This document shows positions 22,630 through 31,652 of a stretch of 64,000 nucleotides of DNA, in pieces. The stretch is from positions 1-64,000 of the forward strand of contig DASSCU010000056.1 in NCBI GenBank assembly GCA_035697485.1, given 5' to 3'. Source of the stretch: Actinomycetota bacterium (GTDB taxonomy: Bacteria > Actinomycetota > UBA4738 > HRBIN12). A program made the translations under genes and the position numbers. Numbering within the stretch: the stretch's first letter is position 1; each line of letters begins with the position of its first letter. Under the pieces are notes generated by a model. That model was not told the DNA's origin. It ran no database searches and was given only the letters and a program-made list of their open reading frames with translations.

Positions 22630-23310
22630 TCAGGATCGCAGCTTGAGGCGCTCGATGCCGTCGAGCATCAGGTCGAGGGCGAACTCGAACTCGAACTGGT
22701 CGTCGCATCCCGCTCCCACGACCGACCTGTCGTCGTGGGAGATCGTCGTGAAGATCTCGTGGATGAAGGGGTACGTGCCTGCCACCGCCTCCCACATCGC
22801 CGCCTCGGCCTCGGGGTCGACGTCGGTGGTGTCGTTGAACAGCTCCTGGGTGAACCCGAAGGTCCGACTGCCCATCGCGTGCAGCACGTGGTGGGTGAGA
22901 TCGAGCGAGAAACCCCCGGTGCGGAGCATCCCGATCATCGAGTCCATGTAGGCGAGCACGACCGGCGTGGGCTTCGTGCGCGACTCCATCACCTTCGACG
23001 CCCACGGGTGACGCATGAGCGCGCGGCGAGCCGAAAGGATCCGTACCCGCATCGCCGTCTTCCAGTCGGCTCCATCGAGCGGCGGATCGATCTCGCCGAT
23101 CACGACGTCGACCAGACCACTCAACAGCTCGTCCTTGTTGGCAACGTGCCGGTACAGCGCCATCGGCACGACGTCGAGGGCCTGCGCGAGCTTCCGCATG
23201 CTCAACGCCTCGACGCCGCCCTGATCGGCCAGGGCCACGGCGGTGTCCAGCACCCGTTCCCTCGTCAGCGGCGCCCGGGTCCGGGCGCCGGCCTGGATCT
23301 CGGTGCTCAT
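22630..23310 (-). CDS. TetR-family regulator (TetR_C-type ligand domain)
   Basis: The 226-residue protein has the TetR DNA-binding helices (RERVLDTAVALADQGGVEAL, SMRKLAQALDVVPMALYRHV, ANKDELLSGLVDVV) and an all-helical C-terminal domain resembling the tetracycline-repressor C-terminal family. ATG 23310 is used; the longer upstream frame runs through the operator DNA and is not coding. It is divergent from the tandem MDR oxidoreductase genes at 23427 and most likely represses them via two 15-bp palindromes in the shared promoter. Confidence 0.9.
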   Translation of the reverse strand: MSTEIQAGARTRAPLTRERVLDTAVALADQGGVEALSMRKLAQALDVVPMALYRHVANKDELLSGLVDVVIGEIDPPLDGADWKTAMRVRILSARRALMRHPWASKVMESRTKPTPVVLAYMDSMIGMLRTGGFSLDLTHHVLHAMGSRTFGFTQELFNDTTDVDPEAEAAMWEAVAGTYPFIHEIFTTISHDDRSVVGAGCDDQFEFEFALDLMLDGIERLKLRS

Positions 23311-23345
23311 CGCGCCCTCACCTCCCACGGGGTCCGACTTGACAA

Positions 23346-23395
23346 GTGTACGCCGTACACGTACGCTGCGCACCCGGTCAGTGTACGGCGTACAC
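23346..23395. promoter_or_regulatory. paired 15-bp TetR operators
   Basis: GTGTACGCCGTACAC (23346-23360) and GTGTACGGCGTACAC (23381-23395) are each perfect 6-bp dyads around a 3-base centre. Each is the exact reverse complement of the other. Centres are 35 bp apart. They lie midway between the divergent TetR gene and the MDR genes, so TetR binding could block both promoters. The match is seen; the binding is inferred from position and symmetry. Confidence 0.85.
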
Positions 23396-23426
23396 ACACA
23401 CAGGATGGTCAGCGGAGGGGATCTAG

Positions 23427-24395
23427 ATGAAGGGGATCACGCAGGATACGTACGGTTCGACCGACGTGCTGGAGTTCAGGGACGTCGCCGAGCCCCGGGT
23501 GGGGGAGCGCGACGTGCTGGTCCAGGTGAAAGCGGCCGGCGTCGAGATCGGCGCGTGGCACGTCATGGCAGGGAAGCCGTACCTGCTCCGCCTGATGGGA
23601 TTCGGACTGCGCAAGCCCAAGGTCCCAGTGCGGGGCCGCGACGTCGCCGGCGTCGTCGAGGCCGTCGGGTCGAGCGTCACTCGCTTCCAGCCGGGCGACG
23701 AGGTGTTCGGCACCGCCGACGGCTCCTTCGCGGAGTACGCGTCGGTGCCCGAGGCACGGCTCGCGCCGAAGCCGGCGAACCTCACGTTCGAGCAGGCGGC
23801 GGTCGTCCCGATCTCGGGCGGCACCGCGCTCCAGGCCCTGCGCAAGGGCAACGTTCAGGCGGGGCAGAAGGTGTTGGTCGTCGGCGCGTCCGGCGGCGTG
23901 GGGTCGTTCGCCGTCCAACTCGCGAAGGCGTTCGGCGCCAAGGTCACCGGCGTGGCGAGCACGGCGAAGATGGACTTCGTGCGGTCGCTCGGCGCCGACG
24001 ACGTGATCGACTACACACATGAGGACTTCGCAGACGGAACGCGCCACTGGGACCTGATCCTCGACATGGGGGGTCTCCGTTCACTGTCCGATCTGCGACG
24101 CGCGCTCACACCCAACGGCACGCTGGTGATCGTGGGCGGCGAGGGGGGTGGGAAGTGGCTCGGTGGATTCGGGCGCAGCCTCCGCTCGGGCTTCGTGTCG
24201 ATGTTCGTCTCGCAGCGCCTGACGATGTTGGCGTCGAAGGAGCGCGGCGAGGACTTCGACGCGCTTCGCGAGCTGATCGAGGCCGGGAGGGTCACTCCGA
24301 TCATCGACCGCACCTTCCCGCTGGCCGACGCCCCCGAGGCGATCCAGTACGTCGTGGAAGGTCGTGGCCGCGGCAAGGTGGCGATCACGGTATGA
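23427..24395 (+). CDS. zinc-independent MDR alcohol dehydrogenase / quinone reductase-like
   Basis: The 322-residue protein starts MKGITQDTYGSTDVLEFRDV and has the MDR GroES-like domain without the usual zinc cysteine/histidine set. It then has the NADPH Rossmann motif VVGASGGVGSFAVQLAKAFG and DDVIDYTHEDFADG. It likely reduces quinones or alkenals with NADPH. GGAGGGGATCTAG precedes the ATG. It shares a transcript with its paralog at 24392 (ATGA overlap) under TetR control, a typical response to toxic small molecules. Confidence 0.86.
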   Translation: MKGITQDTYGSTDVLEFRDVAEPRVGERDVLVQVKAAGVEIGAWHVMAGKPYLLRLMGFGLRKPKVPVRGRDVAGVVEAVGSSVTRFQPGDEVFGTADGSFAEYASVPEARLAPKPANLTFEQAAVVPISGGTALQALRKGNVQAGQKVLVVGASGGVGSFAVQLAKAFGAKVTGVASTAKMDFVRSLGADDVIDYTHEDFADGTRHWDLILDMGGLRSLSDLRRALTPNGTLVIVGGEGGGKWLGGFGRSLRSGFVSMFVSQRLTMLASKERGEDFDALRELIEAGRVTPIIDRTFPLADAPEAIQYVVEGRGRGKVAITV

Positions 24396-25366
24396 AGGCG
24401 CTCGTGCAGGATCGCTACGGCTCGGCGGACGTGCTGGAGTTCAGAGACATCGAGGAACCCGTGGTCGGCGACGACGACGTGCTCGTGCGGGTGCACGCCG
24501 CAGGGTGTGGTCCCGACGTGTGGCACGTGATGACCGGCATGCCGTACATGGCCCGCGTCGCGATCGGGGTCCGCCGACCGAGGGTCGCCGTCCGAGGCTG
24601 GGACGTCGCGGGCACGGTCGAGGCGGTCGGCGCGAACGTCACCCGCTTCGAGCCCGGCGACGACGTGATGGGCACCGCCGAGCAGGGCTCGTTCGCCGAG
24701 TTCGCGGCCACCCGGGCGGACAAGCTCGTCCTGAAGCCGGCCGGGCTCAGCTTCGAGCAGGCAGCGGCCCTTCCGATCTCCGGCATCACCGCCCTTCGGG
24801 CCGTGCGTGACGAGGGGAAGGTGCAACCCGGCCAGACCGTGCTGGTGATCGGCGCCTCCGGTGGCGTGGGATCGCTCGCCGTGCAGATCGCCAGGTCGCT
24901 CGATGCGCAGGTCACCGGCGTGTGCACCACCTCGAAGGTAGACCTAGTCCGCTCGATCGGGGCGGACGACGTGATCGACTACACCCACGAGGACTTCGCA
25001 GACGGGTCGCGGCGCTGGGACGTGATCATCGATACCGCCGGCCGACGCCCGCTGTTGCAGCTGCGCCGCGCCCTCACCCCGAAGGGCGCCCTCGTGATCG
25101 TAGGCGGCGACGGGGGCGGACCGTGGACCGGAGGCTTCTTCCGCGGGATGCTCCGCGCCCCCGTGGTGTCACTGTTCGTGGGGCAGCGGCTCCGCGGCCT
25201 GGCCACGCAGATCGAGCAGGAGGATCTCGTCACCCTCGCCGAGCTCGTCGAAGCCGGCTCGGTCGTGCCGGTGATCGACCGGACCTACCCGCTGATCGAG
25301 GCTCCCGACGCGATCCGCCACCTGGCGCAGGGTCACGCCGCCGGCAAGATCGTGATCATCGTGTAG
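24392..25366 (+). CDS. zinc-independent MDR alcohol dehydrogenase / quinone reductase-like
   Basis: A close tandem paralog of the gene before it: start MKALVQDRYGSADVLEFRDI, Rossmann motif LVIGASGGVGSLAVQIARSL, then GADDVIDYTHEDFADGS and the end GHAAGKIVIIV. The ATG overlaps the previous TGA. The DYTHEDFADG block is identical in both copies, which suggests recent duplication or strong constraint. Its end overlaps the convergent ECF41 gene by 11 bases. Confidence 0.87.
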   Translation: MKALVQDRYGSADVLEFRDIEEPVVGDDDVLVRVHAAGCGPDVWHVMTGMPYMARVAIGVRRPRVAVRGWDVAGTVEAVGANVTRFEPGDDVMGTAEQGSFAEFAATRADKLVLKPAGLSFEQAAALPISGITALRAVRDEGKVQPGQTVLVIGASGGVGSLAVQIARSLDAQVTGVCTTSKVDLVRSIGADDVIDYTHEDFADGSRRWDVIIDTAGRRPLLQLRRALTPKGALVIVGGDGGGPWTGGFFRGMLRAPVVSLFVGQRLRGLATQIEQEDLVTLAELVEAGSVVPVIDRTYPLIEAPDAIRHLAQGHAAGKIVIIV

Positions 25367-26267
25367 CGACATCCGTGTGCGAGCATGGTGGCGTCACGCG
25401 CCGCAGCTTCTGCGGGTTCACGACGGCCTGGATCGCGGCGACCTTCCCGTCGACGATCTCGAGGATCATCGTGCTCACGACCGGGCCGCCAGGCACGTAG
25501 GCGACGGCCCCCGGCTGTCCGTTCACCCAAGTGAGCGCGACCTCGATTCCCTGCCGCTGGGCAGTGCGTCCGAGGCCCAGCAGGAAGCGCGCGACGCGCA
25601 GCGGTCCCTCGACCGGCGTTCGCACGGCGCCGGCGCCACCGCCGTCGCCGACCATGACGACGTCGTCGGACAGCATCTGCAGCAGGCCGTCGAGGTCGCC
25701 GTCGCCCACGGCGGTGAAGAACCGTTCCGTGAGCTCCCGCTTTCGCTCCGGCGACGGATCGAAACGCGGACGCCGCGCTTCGGTGTGCTTGCGCGCCCGC
25801 ACGGCGATCTGCCGCGTGTTCGCGGGCGACTTCCCGACGAAGGCCGCGACCTCCTCGAAGTCGAACCCGAACACGTCGTGCAGCAGGAAGACCGCGCGCT
25901 CGACCGGCGACAGCGTCTCGAGCACGACGAGGAACGCGATCGACAGCGACTCCAGGTCCTCGGCGCGCTCTTCGAGGGAGGGCTCGTCGGCGACCAGCGG
26001 CTCGGGAAGCCACGTTCCCACGTAGCGCTCCCGGCGCACGCGGGCCGAGCGCAGGTGGTCGATCGAGAGCCGCGTCGCCACTTCGGCCAGGAACGCCTTC
26101 GGCTCCCGGATCTCGCCTCCGTCCGCCAGCAGTCGGTGCGCGCGCAGGAACGTCTCCTGCACGATGTCCTCGGCGTCGCCGACCTCGCTCACCATCCGGT
26201 AGGCGATCGAGAACAGCAGCGGTCGGTACCGCTCCAGCTCCTCGACGTCGATCGGTGCTCCGTTCAT
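25356..26267 (-). CDS. sigJ: ECF41-group sigma factor with SnoaL-like C-terminal domain (SigJ type)
   Basis: Residues about 8-75 are sigma region 2 (YRPLLFSIAYRMVSEVGDAE, DIVQETFLRAHRLL) and about 105-165 region 4 (LSPVERAVFLLHDVFGFDFE). The rest is a SnoaL-like domain. ECF41 hallmarks are present: a WLPEPLV segment in the linker, a DGGG motif in the SnoaL domain (VGDGGGAGAV) and a late NPQKL motif equivalent to NPDKL. No anti-sigma gene is adjacent; in this group the fused domain itself controls activity. The gene is preceded by TGTCACA-N16-CGTC, so it should autoregulate. The symbol follows actinobacterial SigJ naming. Confidence 0.9.
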   Translation of the reverse strand: MNGAPIDVEELERYRPLLFSIAYRMVSEVGDAEDIVQETFLRAHRLLADGGEIREPKAFLAEVATRLSIDHLRSARVRRERYVGTWLPEPLVADEPSLEERAEDLESLSIAFLVVLETLSPVERAVFLLHDVFGFDFEEVAAFVGKSPANTRQIAVRARKHTEARRPRFDPSPERKRELTERFFTAVGDGDLDGLLQMLSDDVVMVGDGGGAGAVRTPVEGPLRVARFLLGLGRTAQRQGIEVALTWVNGQPGAVAYVPGGPVVSTMILEIVDGKVAAIQAVVNPQKLRRVTPPCSHTDVATR

Positions 26268-26277
26268 CGCCTTCCCA

Positions 26278-26304
26278 GACGTGATGGCGCCCTCCCATGT
26301 GACA
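26278..26304 (-). promoter_or_regulatory. ECF41-type promoter of the sigma gene
   Basis: On the minus strand, TGTCACA (26298-26304) is followed after exactly 16 bases by CGTC (26278-26281). This equals the promoter consensus I recall for ECF41 sigma factors. Transcription would start only about five bases before the ATG at 26267, so the sigma mRNA is leaderless or nearly so. It indicates autoregulation. Confidence 0.85.
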
Positions 26305-26320
26305 CGTAGTGGTGCTCGGC

Positions 26321-26347
26321 TGTCACACGATCGATCCATACCCCGTC
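26321..26347 (+). promoter_or_regulatory. ECF41-type promoter of the divergent epimerase-fold gene
   Basis: TGTCACA (26321-26327) and CGTC (26344-26347) are separated by exactly 16 bases, the same as in the opposite promoter. Transcription would begin near 26354, giving a leader of about 35 bases with GGAGGAGG before the ATG at 26391. This marks the downstream gene as a direct ECF41 target. Confidence 0.85.
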
Positions 26348-26390
26348 TCCACGGGTGACAGACACCGAACAGGCTCGGAGGAGGAGCGTC

Positions 26391-27332
26391 ATGAGGGTAT
26401 TCGTCGCGGGAGCATCCGGGGCGATCGGCAGCCGGCTCGTCCCGGCACTCGTGAGGAGCGGCCACCAGGTCGTCGGCACGACGCGCACGCCGGCGAAGAC
26501 CGAGCGGCTCCGACAGCTCGGCGCTCACCCCGTCGTCGTCGATGCGCTCGACGAGGTCGCGGTGAAGGACGCGGTCGCCAAGGCAGCACCCGACGTCGTC
26601 GTGCACGAGCTGACGGCGATCCCCGACGCGGTCGATCCTCGGAAGCTCGACCAACAGTTCGCTCTCACCAACCGGCTTCGCACCGAGGGTACGGACCACC
26701 TGCTCGAGGCCGCCCGCTCGGTGGGCGTGCGTCGGTTCGTCGCGCAGAGCTTCGCCTCGTGGGTCTACGCGCGAACCGGCGGTCCGGTCAAGGTCGAGTC
26801 GGACCCGATCGAGACCGATCCGCCGGCGAGCGTGCGGCAGACGCTTGCCGGCATCCTGCACGTCGAGCGCACGCTCGCCGAGGCGACCGACCTCGAGGGC
26901 GTCGCGCTGCGATACGGGGGCTTCTACGGGCCGGGGACGTCCCTCGGCGAGGGCGGCCCGGTGCTGGACATGGTGCGCAAGCGGCGCTTCCCCATCGTGG
27001 GCAGCGGCAGCGGCGTCTGGTCGTTCGTGCACATCGACGACGCGGCCGCCGCGACGGCCGCCGCGATCGAGCGCGGCGCTCCGGGCATCTACAACGTGAC
27101 CGACGACGATCCCGCGTCGGTGGCGACGTGGCTGCCGGAGCTCGCCGACGCGATCGGCGCGCCGGCGCCGCGCCGGGTTCCGACATGGCTGGCGAGGTTG
27201 CTCGTCGGCCCCACGGGCGTGGCGATGATGACCGACCTGCGCGGCGCGTCGAACGCAAAGGCGAAGCGCGAGCTCGGGTGGCAGCCGCAGTACGCGTCGT
27301 GGCGGGAAGGGTTCCGTACCGGGTTGGAGTGA
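26391..27332 (+). CDS. NAD(P)-dependent epimerase/dehydratase-fold oxidoreductase
   Basis: The 313-residue extended-SDR protein has the dinucleotide motif VAGASGAIGSRLVPALVRSG at the N-terminus, a VVDALDEVAVKDAV segment and a C-terminal substrate domain (GVWSFVHIDDAAAATAAAIE). ECF41 genes are classically paired with an oxidoreductase, carboxymuconolactone decarboxylase or epimerase-type gene, and this is that partner. A GTG at 26355 is in frame and near the predicted transcription start, but ATG 26391 has the strong ribosome-binding site. Substrate unknown. Confidence 0.87.
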   Translation: MRVFVAGASGAIGSRLVPALVRSGHQVVGTTRTPAKTERLRQLGAHPVVVDALDEVAVKDAVAKAAPDVVVHELTAIPDAVDPRKLDQQFALTNRLRTEGTDHLLEAARSVGVRRFVAQSFASWVYARTGGPVKVESDPIETDPPASVRQTLAGILHVERTLAEATDLEGVALRYGGFYGPGTSLGEGGPVLDMVRKRRFPIVGSGSGVWSFVHIDDAAAATAAAIERGAPGIYNVTDDDPASVATWLPELADAIGAPAPRRVPTWLARLLVGPTGVAMMTDLRGASNAKAKRELGWQPQYASWREGFRTGLE

Positions 27333-27357: not shown

Positions 27358-27873
27358 TCAGGTGTCGCTGTCGTGCCTGGCCTTGAGCTCCTCGGCCAGG
27401 TGGTCGGCGAGGCGGTCGAAGAAGATCAGCGATCCTCGCATCGCGCGGGAGTACTCGTCGGCCGGCATGGTGCCGCGCTGCGTGAACGTCATCTCGGTGC
27501 GGCCGTCGAGGTCGCGGAACTCGGCCCGCAGCACCTCAGGGGGACCCTCCACGGCCTCGCCGGCGACTTCGAGCACGAGCTCGACGACCTCGGGTTCCAC
27601 CACCTCGCGGAACGTGCCTGAGAACGGGATCTCGATGCGCTCGGGGCCGTGGATCATCATGGCGCTCCACGCGCCGCCCGGCCGTGGATCCATCGAGGCG
27701 GTCTCGAGCGGGATCGACGACCCGTGCTCGCCGAACCATGTCGCGAACCGTGCCGGCTCGGTCCAGGCCTTGAAGACCAGCTCACGCGGGGCATCGAAGA
27801 CCCGGACGATCACGATGCCGTCGGCGTCGCTCTTCGCCGAGACCACGCCTTCGGGAGGGGTCGGTTCAGTCAT
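27358..27873 (-). CDS. SRPBCC (AHSA1-like) ligand-binding protein
   Basis: The 171-residue START-fold protein has the signature FDAPRELVFKAWTEPARFAT, then WFGEHG, a GGAWSAMMIHGPER strand, FREVVEPEVVELVLE and the C-terminal helix SLIFFDRLADHLAEELKA. Its start lies inside the end of the ArsR gene (8-base overlap), so the pair is translated together. ArsR-SRPBCC pairs are common in actinobacteria; the SRPBCC partner binds an unknown hydrophobic ligand. Confidence 0.88.
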   Translation of the reverse strand: MTEPTPPEGVVSAKSDADGIVIVRVFDAPRELVFKAWTEPARFATWFGEHGSSIPLETASMDPRPGGAWSAMMIHGPERIEIPFSGTFREVVEPEVVELVLEVAGEAVEGPPEVLRAEFRDLDGRTEMTFTQRGTMPADEYSRAMRGSLIFFDRLADHLAEELKARHDSDT

Positions 27874-28207
27874 CTCGCGCTCCTTCCTGATCGCGGGCGT
27901 TCCGCAAGTGCTCGTCGAGGCGGTCGAAGCTCTCGTCCCAGAAGCGCCGGTCCTGGACCCAATCGATGACCTGCCCGAGCGGTTCGCGCCGCAGACGGCA
28001 CGGCCGCCATTGCGCCGAGTGGGTCCGCGAGATCAGTCCTGCCCGCTCGAGCACCTTGAGGTGCTTCGAGACCGCCTGCAAGGAGATCGGGAACGGCTCG
28101 GCCAACTCGCCGACGCTCGCCTCCCCGTCGGCCAGGCGCTCCAGGATCGCGCGCCGCGTGGGATCCGCGAGGGCGGACAACGTGGCGCTGAGCTGATCGA
28201 CCGGCAT
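27866..28207 (-). CDS. ArsR-family repressor of an SRPBCC operon
   Basis: The 113-residue winged-helix protein has [20 protein letters not shown], then ILERLADGEASVGELAEPFP and the recognition helix SLQAVSKHLKVLERAGLI. It lacks the metal-binding cysteines of arsenic or zinc sensors, as is usual for the SRPBCC-linked ArsR branch. A perfect 9-bp palindrome lies 16 bases upstream of its start and is the expected operator. A paralog with the same N-terminus is at 1-168. Confidence 0.9.
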   Translation of the reverse strand: MPVDQLSATLSALADPTRRAILERLADGEASVGELAEPFPISLQAVSKHLKVLERAGLISRTHSAQWRPCRLRREPLGQVIDWVQDRRFWDESFDRLDEHLRNARDQEGARDD

Positions 28208-29809: not shown

Positions 29810-30964
29810 TTAGCCGGCCTCGGTGCTCGCCTGGAACGCCGCCATGCCGTAGAAGTCGCCGACCGAGACGTCGAGGACGCGCGCCGAGGCATCGCCGATC
29901 GAGTATTCGACGATCTGACGGCGTCCAGCGAGCTGTCCTCCCGTGAGGTAGACGGTGTCGCCCGACGGCGCCCAATCGAGGAACACGTAGGGCGTCGGCA
30001 CGATCGCCTCGTCCACGAGATCGGTCCGGCCCGTGGCCAGATCGATCAGCGCGAGCTGACGCTCGGCGTCCTCCCCGTCCCCCAGGCGGACGGCGACCGC
30101 GAGGCTGGTCCCGTCCGGCGAGAACACCCCATGGAGTGCTTCGAAGCCGGTGGCGTCGGCCGGAGGCTGGACGGTCCTCGTTCCGCCCGAGCGTAGATCT
30201 TTCACGAGCAGCGAGCGGCATGCGCCGTCGCACCACGCGAAGAGTGCTCCGTCCCATGCGACGGGGAGCTGACCCGGTAACCGATCGACCTCCCGGCCGG
30301 TCCACGGGTCCCACACGACCAGCTCGCCTCGTTCCTGGAACACGAGGTTCCCGTCGACGGCGGCGACGGGCCAGGCGCCGTCGGGGGGACGCGTGTCCGG
30401 TACGGTCACCCGACCGTCGATCGCCACCTCGCGGACCGCGGTCAACCTGCCGTCGTCCTGCGACCCCTCGACGATACCGACCCAGACGCGGTCGGGCGCG
30501 GACGACGGGATGAAGAACAACGAATCGCGCACGAGCACGTCGAAGCCCGGGTCGGCGCCGGGGTGCAGGACGAGCGTTCGGTACGCCCACGCGACCAGGG
30601 CGTCGTCCCGTCGCACGATGCGGTGGGGCGCGTCGCCCGGTGGCAACTCCGGCATCGGCAGGTGCTGCACCGTCTCCTTGGTGGGATCGACCACCCAGGC
30701 CTCCCCGTCACCCGCGAGGAACAGCCGGTCTCCGAGCGTGTCCGGGGCGGGCGAGGCGGCGATCGTGGCGCGATCCCCCTCGCGATCGGCCGCCACCCAC
30801 GCGCCGACGATCACGAAGACGGCCACGGTGATGCCGAGCACGCCGGCGCCGACCCTGCGACGACGTGCCCGCGTGTCGGCCCGTGCCCGCACTTCGTCGA
30901 TGGGCGCGGGCGCCGGCTCGAGGTCGTCGAGGTCGCGGTGCATCCGCTCGATCAGATCATCCAT
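29810..30964 (-). CDS. single-pass membrane protein with beta-propeller, partner of ECF sigma
   Basis: The 384-residue protein has a cytoplasmic N-terminus (MDDLIERMHRDLDDLEPAPA), one membrane helix at about 39-60 (GAGVLGITVAVFVIVGAWVA) and an extracellular repeat region of four-strand blades. Two are LFLAGDGEAWVVDPTKETVQ and FSPDGTSLAVAVRLGDGED; the last is WAPSGDTVYLTGGQ. It overlaps the sigma gene by 8 bases. By arrangement it is the likely sensor/anti-sigma partner. It lacks a recognisable zinc anti-sigma motif, so direct sigma binding is inference. Confidence 0.7.
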   Translation of the reverse strand: MDDLIERMHRDLDDLEPAPAPIDEVRARADTRARRRRVGAGVLGITVAVFVIVGAWVAADREGDRATIAASPAPDTLGDRLFLAGDGEAWVVDPTKETVQHLPMPELPPGDAPHRIVRRDDALVAWAYRTLVLHPGADPGFDVLVRDSLFFIPSSAPDRVWVGIVEGSQDDGRLTAVREVAIDGRVTVPDTRPPDGAWPVAAVDGNLVFQERGELVVWDPWTGREVDRLPGQLPVAWDGALFAWCDGACRSLLVKDLRSGGTRTVQPPADATGFEALHGVFSPDGTSLAVAVRLGDGEDAERQLALIDLATGRTDLVDEAIVPTPYVFLDWAPSGDTVYLTGGQLAGRRQIVEYSIGDASARVLDVSVGDFYGMAAFQASTEAG

Positions 30965-31481
30965 CGTCGCTCTCCTCCGGGATCAGCCGTGCGCGAAGCT
31001 CCCGCCGGGCTCGATGCACCCGGCTGCGCACCGACACCGGCGTGATGTGCAGGATGCGCGCCGCTTCGTCGGAGCTCATCCCGAGCCAGTCGACGAGCAT
31101 GAACGCCTCGCGTAGTCGGACCGAGAGCGCCGAGATCGCGTCGGCGAGGTCCCGGCGGGCGGGATCGATCTCCTCATCGCGCATGGCTGCGCCGAGCGTG
31201 CGCAACCGTCTGGCTCGCACGGCGAGCGACCGGAGCCGGTGGCGGTTGAGGTTCGTCGCCGCCCGGTAGAGGTAGCCGCCCGGCGACGCCATCGCCGACA
31301 CCCGGTCCCAGCGCTCGTACACCCTGACCATCGCCTCCTGCGCGAGCTCCTGCGCCTCGTCGACGTCCGGCACGAGCAGGAACATCGCCCGCACCAGGCT
31401 CGGGAACTCCGCTCGATAGAAGTCCTCGAAGTCCGGCGGCGCCTCGACGTCGTCGCGTCGCTCCGCTCTCACCTTCGTCAC
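30957..31481 (-). CDS. ECF sigma factor (SigE-like)
   Basis: The 174-residue protein has region 2 (FEDFYRAEFPSLVRAMFLLV, ELAQEAMVRVYERWDRV) and region 4 (LSVRLREAFMLVDWLGMSSD, EAARILHITPVSVRSRVHRA), with no extra C-terminal domain. GTG 31481 is chosen; the frame is open further upstream, but that part is not sigma-like. It is followed, with overlap, by the membrane beta-propeller gene. This arrangement is typical of an ECF factor held by a membrane partner. Confidence 0.87.
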   Translation of the reverse strand: MTKVRAERRDDVEAPPDFEDFYRAEFPSLVRAMFLLVPDVDEAQELAQEAMVRVYERWDRVSAMASPGGYLYRAATNLNRHRLRSLAVRARRLRTLGAAMRDEEIDPARRDLADAISALSVRLREAFMLVDWLGMSSDEAARILHITPVSVRSRVHRARRELRARLIPEESDDG

Positions 31482-31652
31482 ATGAAACCAACCCCCGGGA
31501 CGGGGCGAACGTTGCATGCGCTCCTGCAACGAGAGCGCACGACGGGTGACTTCGGCGCGTACCTGAGTCAGAGGCACGAGCGTTCGCGGACCACGATCGA
31601 GGACATGAAGCTCTCCAAGGAGCTTCGCGAGGTGCGCTCTCACTCAACGCTT

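Follow-up and report, generated by a model that had tools for sequence, protein, structure and literature searches.

The region between an ECF41-type sigma factor gene and a divergently oriented gene for an epimerase-fold protein, located in the 64,000-nucleotide stretch analysed here (the window; GCA_035697485.1, contig DASSCU010000056.1), raises the question of which genes this sigma factor controls and where their messages begin. The original prediction placed the sequence TGTCACA-N16-CGTC on both strands between the two genes. Two exact copies were confirmed, facing outward. The locus contains the following features:

25356-26267, minus strand: gene for a stress-type sigma factor of the ECF41/SigJ type (303 aa, starting with ATG 26267; contains region 2, region 4 and SnoaL_2)
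26278-26304, minus strand: predicted ECF41 promoter toward the sigma gene (-35 TGTCACA 26298-26304, -10 CGTC 26278-26281); exact match, with an equivalent site in the closest family relatives
26305-26320: spacer of 16 bp separating both -35 elements (6-30 bp in other divergent loci)
26321-26347, plus strand: predicted ECF41 promoter toward the epimerase gene (-35 TGTCACA 26321-26327, -10 CGTC 26344-26347); exact match
26377-26384, plus strand: Shine-Dalgarno-like sequence GGAGGAGG ahead of the epimerase ATG 26391, as read from the sequence
26391-27332, plus strand: gene for a protein with an NAD(P)-dependent epimerase/reductase fold (313 aa; Pfam Epimerase, E 4e-26), the predicted target

The sigma factor carries the domains Sigma70_r2 and Sigma70_r4_2, both above the Pfam cut-offs, and a C-terminal SnoaL_2 domain (28.1 bits, Pfam cut-off 27). 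It also passes the NCBIfam model for SigJ (311.9 bits, cut-off 271). DGGG is located at residue 208 and NPQKL at residue 284; we take DGGG and NPxKL to be motifs of the ECF41 C-terminal extension. The sequence WLPEP was found at residue 86, in the linker that joins region 2 to region 4. A WLPEP linker motif and a C-terminal extension carrying three conserved motifs are the hallmarks of ECF41 factors (PMC3426412). With its sigma regions 2 and 4, the SnoaL-like extension, WLPEP, the promoter at the locus and the neighbouring epimerase gene, the protein affiliates with this group. The genome contains one close ECF41 gene, the next match being 32% identical over part of the protein.

With regard to a neighbouring anti-sigma factor gene, the adjoining open reading frames (ORFs) read as two dehydrogenase-type oxidoreductases, the epimerase and an AHSA1/ArsR-like pair. 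The tandem oxidoreductase genes (23427-24395 and 24393-25366, plus strand; named by reading) share 61% identity, and the second is convergent with the sigma gene, overlapping it by 11 bp. Their divergent neighbour is a TetR-like gene (22630-23397, minus strand; by reading). On the other side, the AHSA1-like and ArsR-like genes (27358-27873 and 27866-28207, minus strand; by reading) are a familiar combination, with a short overlap of a few bases. The stretch also contains another ECF-type sigma factor gene (30957-31643, minus strand), with 29% identity over part of the protein; the gene that follows it (29810-30964) may encode a membrane-anchored protein.

The motif, which the original prediction had matched to the ECF41 consensus, is identical with the ECF41 promoter published by Wecke et al. 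2012 (PMC3426412), where TGTCACA-n16-CGTC precedes COE genes (carboxymuconolactone decarboxylase, oxidoreductase or epimerase) and the sigma gene itself. Motif, gene pair and double promoter have already been described in that publication. The gene next to the sigma gene in the window falls within this scheme, as it carries the Pfam domain Epimerase (PF01370), one of those that define the epimerase class of Wecke et al. (PMC3426412). Since an ECF41 promoter lies ahead of both genes, the sigma factor probably activates itself and one enzyme. The autoregulation and single direct epimerase target originally proposed agree with the published pattern, in which a COE gene or operon was the only detectable ECF41 target and mutants showed no reproducible phenotype (PMC3426412).

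Within the window, the two copies were the only matches to TGTCACA-N14-18-CGTC, against 0.26 expected from shuffling, and at least two matches occurred in 3 of 100 shuffles. They were also the only exact N16 matches in the genome (3.41 Mb). Allowing spacers of N15-17 gave three genome matches, namely the promoter pair and one N17 site inside a subtilisin-like peptidase ORF on contig C24, and a scan with one mismatch gave 32 more. Further matches upstream of redox genes had been anticipated; neither the exact nor the one-mismatch genome scan yielded a convincing one, or a convincing third target. Four one-mismatch sites lay apparently ahead of possible starts, and three of these gave weak or spurious ORFs. 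The site L239 (-35 TTTCACA) precedes an ORF reading like another ECF sigma factor and was discarded on account of its altered -35 element and long spacing.

Where ECF41-linked epimerases were found, the epimerase-fold protein shares 48-64% identity with them in most of the loci. The nearest named model along its full length is that of the 3-diazoavenalumate reductase AvaA7 (NCBIfam DiazavRedAvaA7), an enzyme that swaps a diazo group for hydride from NADPH (PMC10777205). The score of 287.4 bits lies below the cut-off of 400, and hence the AvaA7 reaction cannot be claimed; a role as a hydride-transferring reductase is only a lead from sequence similarity. As start codon, an in-frame GTG at 26355, at the predicted transcription start site, was considered for a leaderless message. 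ATG 26391 was preferred because it follows a strong Shine-Dalgarno site and because the Rossmann fold begins at residue 1. No unusual fold was detected in the leader of the epimerase mRNA (z 0.98).

The position of the two transcription starts can be estimated from other ECF41 promoters. In the start-site map of Sinorhizobium meliloti (PMC3616915), a mapped transcription start follows the ECF41 motif at a distance of 9 nt. The promoter sequence printed in PMC6180224 ends with a G, 9 nt after CGTC, which in our reading is the transcription start. For the same genes, Wecke et al. give leaders of 22/23 nt in the text and of 31 and 32 in Table 5 (PMC3426412), and an offset of 9 nt would reconcile the two. 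Applying this 9-nt rule, a motif-to-start distance borrowed from distant bacteria, gives by analogy:

26268-26270, minus strand: predicted transcription start of the sigma gene, 8-10 nt after CGTC; leader of about 0-3 nt
26355-26357, plus strand: predicted transcription start of the epimerase gene; leader of about 34-36 nt

The starts suggested earlier (26272 on the minus and 26354 on the plus strand) hence shift by about 1-4 nt downstream. The near-leaderless sigma mRNA predicted with them gains support from the start mapped for another ECF41 promoter, as well as from a spacing of 8-12 nt that recurs in relatives. At this locus, 10 nt separate CGTC from the sigma ATG 26267, and with a start 9 nt after the motif as in S. 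meliloti the message would carry about 0-3 nt before this AUG. The purine-rich stretch GGGAAGG directly precedes the ATG; if transcription began earlier, some of it could remain for ribosome binding, although its spacing to the ATG is short.

The distance between motif and start codon was surveyed in 192 ECF41-type loci, composed of 80 named loci from GTDB genomes and loci of the organism's phylum. This phylum is probably Actinomycetota, as two loci of the phylum sample share 86-90% identity with a named Mycobacterium locus. A promoter faces the sigma gene in 35 of them. When these 35 loci were tallied by the 5-nt windows after CGTC in which they have an in-frame ATG, 16 loci had one at 8-12 nt and none at 3-7 or at 13-27 nt, and no later window exceeded 4 loci. 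Across the phylum, counts of ATG positions behind the bare motif were dominated by chance intragenic matches. In a second comparison, 111 promoter sites were sorted by the gene behind them via simple sequence patterns (20 stayed unsorted), and an in-frame ATG 8-12 nt after CGTC was present in 17/32 sigma genes versus 5/59 target genes (Fisher p ~4e-6, a value that disregards relatedness and overstates independence, since the 17 sigma loci belong to about seven groups at family level, comprising the window's family, Acrocarpospora, Massilia and four single families). The first ATG of target genes is mostly located 19-56 nt after CGTC. Four mycobacterial targets, carboxymuconolactone-decarboxylase-like by reading (L214, L215, L216 and L225), have their ATG exactly 8 nt after CGTC and are likely leaderless judging from this position, which makes the distinction between sigma and target genes a tendency. 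On sequence grounds, leaderless sigma messages look like a recurrent ECF41 design. It appears moderately probable that the ECF41 promoter of the sigma gene commonly abuts the ATG (8-12 nt after the -10 element) and yields a leaderless message in about seven lineages from Actinomycetota to Massilia, with most targets having Shine-Dalgarno leaders, so that self-amplification and output would differ in translation initiation. A limited literature search, including passages of the S. meliloti start-site map (PMC3616915), retrieved no description linking ECF41 sigma genes to leaderless messages.

Two other observations were made around the start sites. A suspected TGAC element turned out to be mostly an artefact of choosing loci by their ATG. 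ECF41 sigma genes with long leaders (L115, L122, L125, L127, L130, L137 and similar ones) share the sequence TAGAG where transcription would be expected to begin, about 8-13 nt after CGTC.

In the organism's small family, the closest homologues of the sigma factor (52-55% identity) are encoded in five loci in four genomes; in one of them, L167 (G016:C2), the sigma gene apparently has a frameshift near residue 70, due to either a mutation or an error in the assembly. The outward-facing promoter pair is kept in the window and in all five homologous loci if the -35 element is read as TGTCAC[AG]. The gap from -35 to -35 measures 16 bp in the window and 24, 11, 12, 30 and 11 bp in the relatives; a locus from another family has 6 bp. 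Divergent arrangement and 16-base spacer are hence conserved, and the gap between the promoters is variable. Four of the six family loci have something other than an epimerase gene on the divergent side, namely predicted small ORFs with Pfam scores below cut-off. The divergent ECF41-type promoter of L135, L167 and L213 faces a protein of 64-85 aa with hydrophobic segments, resembling a small membrane protein, and that of L096 faces a protein of 104 aa whose similarity to MerR regulators is confined to their C-terminal part. In two of the former three loci, a comparable MerR-tail reading follows close behind the small protein. The occurrence of such genes under the divergent promoter in close relatives suggests that the output of the ECF41 module can be exchanged.

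We assign a probability of about 0.87 to the locus being a divergent ECF41 unit with two active promoters, autoregulation, one redox target and a leaderless or near-leaderless sigma mRNA, as judged from motifs, genes and their conservation. The main competing explanation, which we regard as unlikely, is that ECF41 uses the epimerase promoter alone and that most transcription of the sigma gene comes from a different promoter, giving a normal leader, with the second motif being minor. Many ECF41 genes do lack a motif of their own: it faces the sigma gene in 35/192 loci of our survey, and among 55 published divergent <ECF< >COE> loci the sigma-gene promoter was present in 36 and the COE promoter in 41 (PMC3426412). 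In our case, however, both motifs are exact and outward pairs are kept in the closest relatives, and ATG 26267 is the only in-frame start codon in the interval that begins 12 nt before the end of the -10 element and extends 90 nt beyond it.

A start of the sigma protein at a codon other than ATG 26267, with an ordinary leader, is less probable still. Relatives such as L135 and L096 have later ATG/GTG starts behind Shine-Dalgarno-like stretches, but the gene in the window lacks any further in-frame ATG, GTG or TTG ahead of conserved region 2, and the sequence MERRS at the upstream start is common to two relatives despite synonymous codon changes. Finally, the two -35 elements form an inverted repeat, and TGTGACA-N16-TGTCACA might be read as the dyad operator of a dimeric regulator. 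This we consider highly improbable, as relatives differ in the gap between the elements (6 to 30 bp) but have a constant spacing of 16 to CGTC, and targets in operon-type loci are preceded by single, non-dyad copies.

In the divergent unit that we favour, the SnoaL-like C-terminal domain would hold the activity of the sigma factor in check until a signal arrives. The active factor would then guide RNA polymerase to both outward-facing TGTCACA-N16-CGTC promoters, leading to more sigma factor and more of one redox enzyme. The sigma mRNA, starting about 0-3 nt from its AUG, would be translated in leaderless or near-leaderless mode, and the enzyme mRNA would have a Shine-Dalgarno site within a leader of about 35 nt. 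ECF41 factors are widespread, and this locus adds a clean minimal unit of one sigma gene and one target with precise start predictions; the relatives suggest a general difference in translation between ECF41 sigma and target messages. Beyond the published pattern, the analysis contributes a corrected start prediction, the probable recurrence of leaderless sigma messages and a hint of an exchangeable divergent target.

Compared with known systems, the divergent locus appears to be an ordinary member of the described ECF41 group, with the less-noted twist of a predicted sigma message almost without leader. It shares with Ecf41Bli and Ecf41Rsp (PMC3426412) the promoter, the adjacent COE gene, WLPEP, the C-terminal extension and the occurrence of divergent double-promoter loci. 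The targets tested in that group were carboxymuconolactone decarboxylases, whereas the target here is an epimerase-fold enzyme. SigJ of Mycobacterium tuberculosis (PDB: 5xe7) resembles the sigma factor in sequence and domain order along its length (E 7e-48), with an alignment that covers the C-terminal extension. RpoE9 of S. meliloti has the same promoter motif and one target (PMC3616915, PMC6180224). There, the COE and sigma genes likely form one operon read from the COE promoter and a separate sigma-gene promoter is not described, unlike at the present locus, where the sigma gene has its own copy of the motif.
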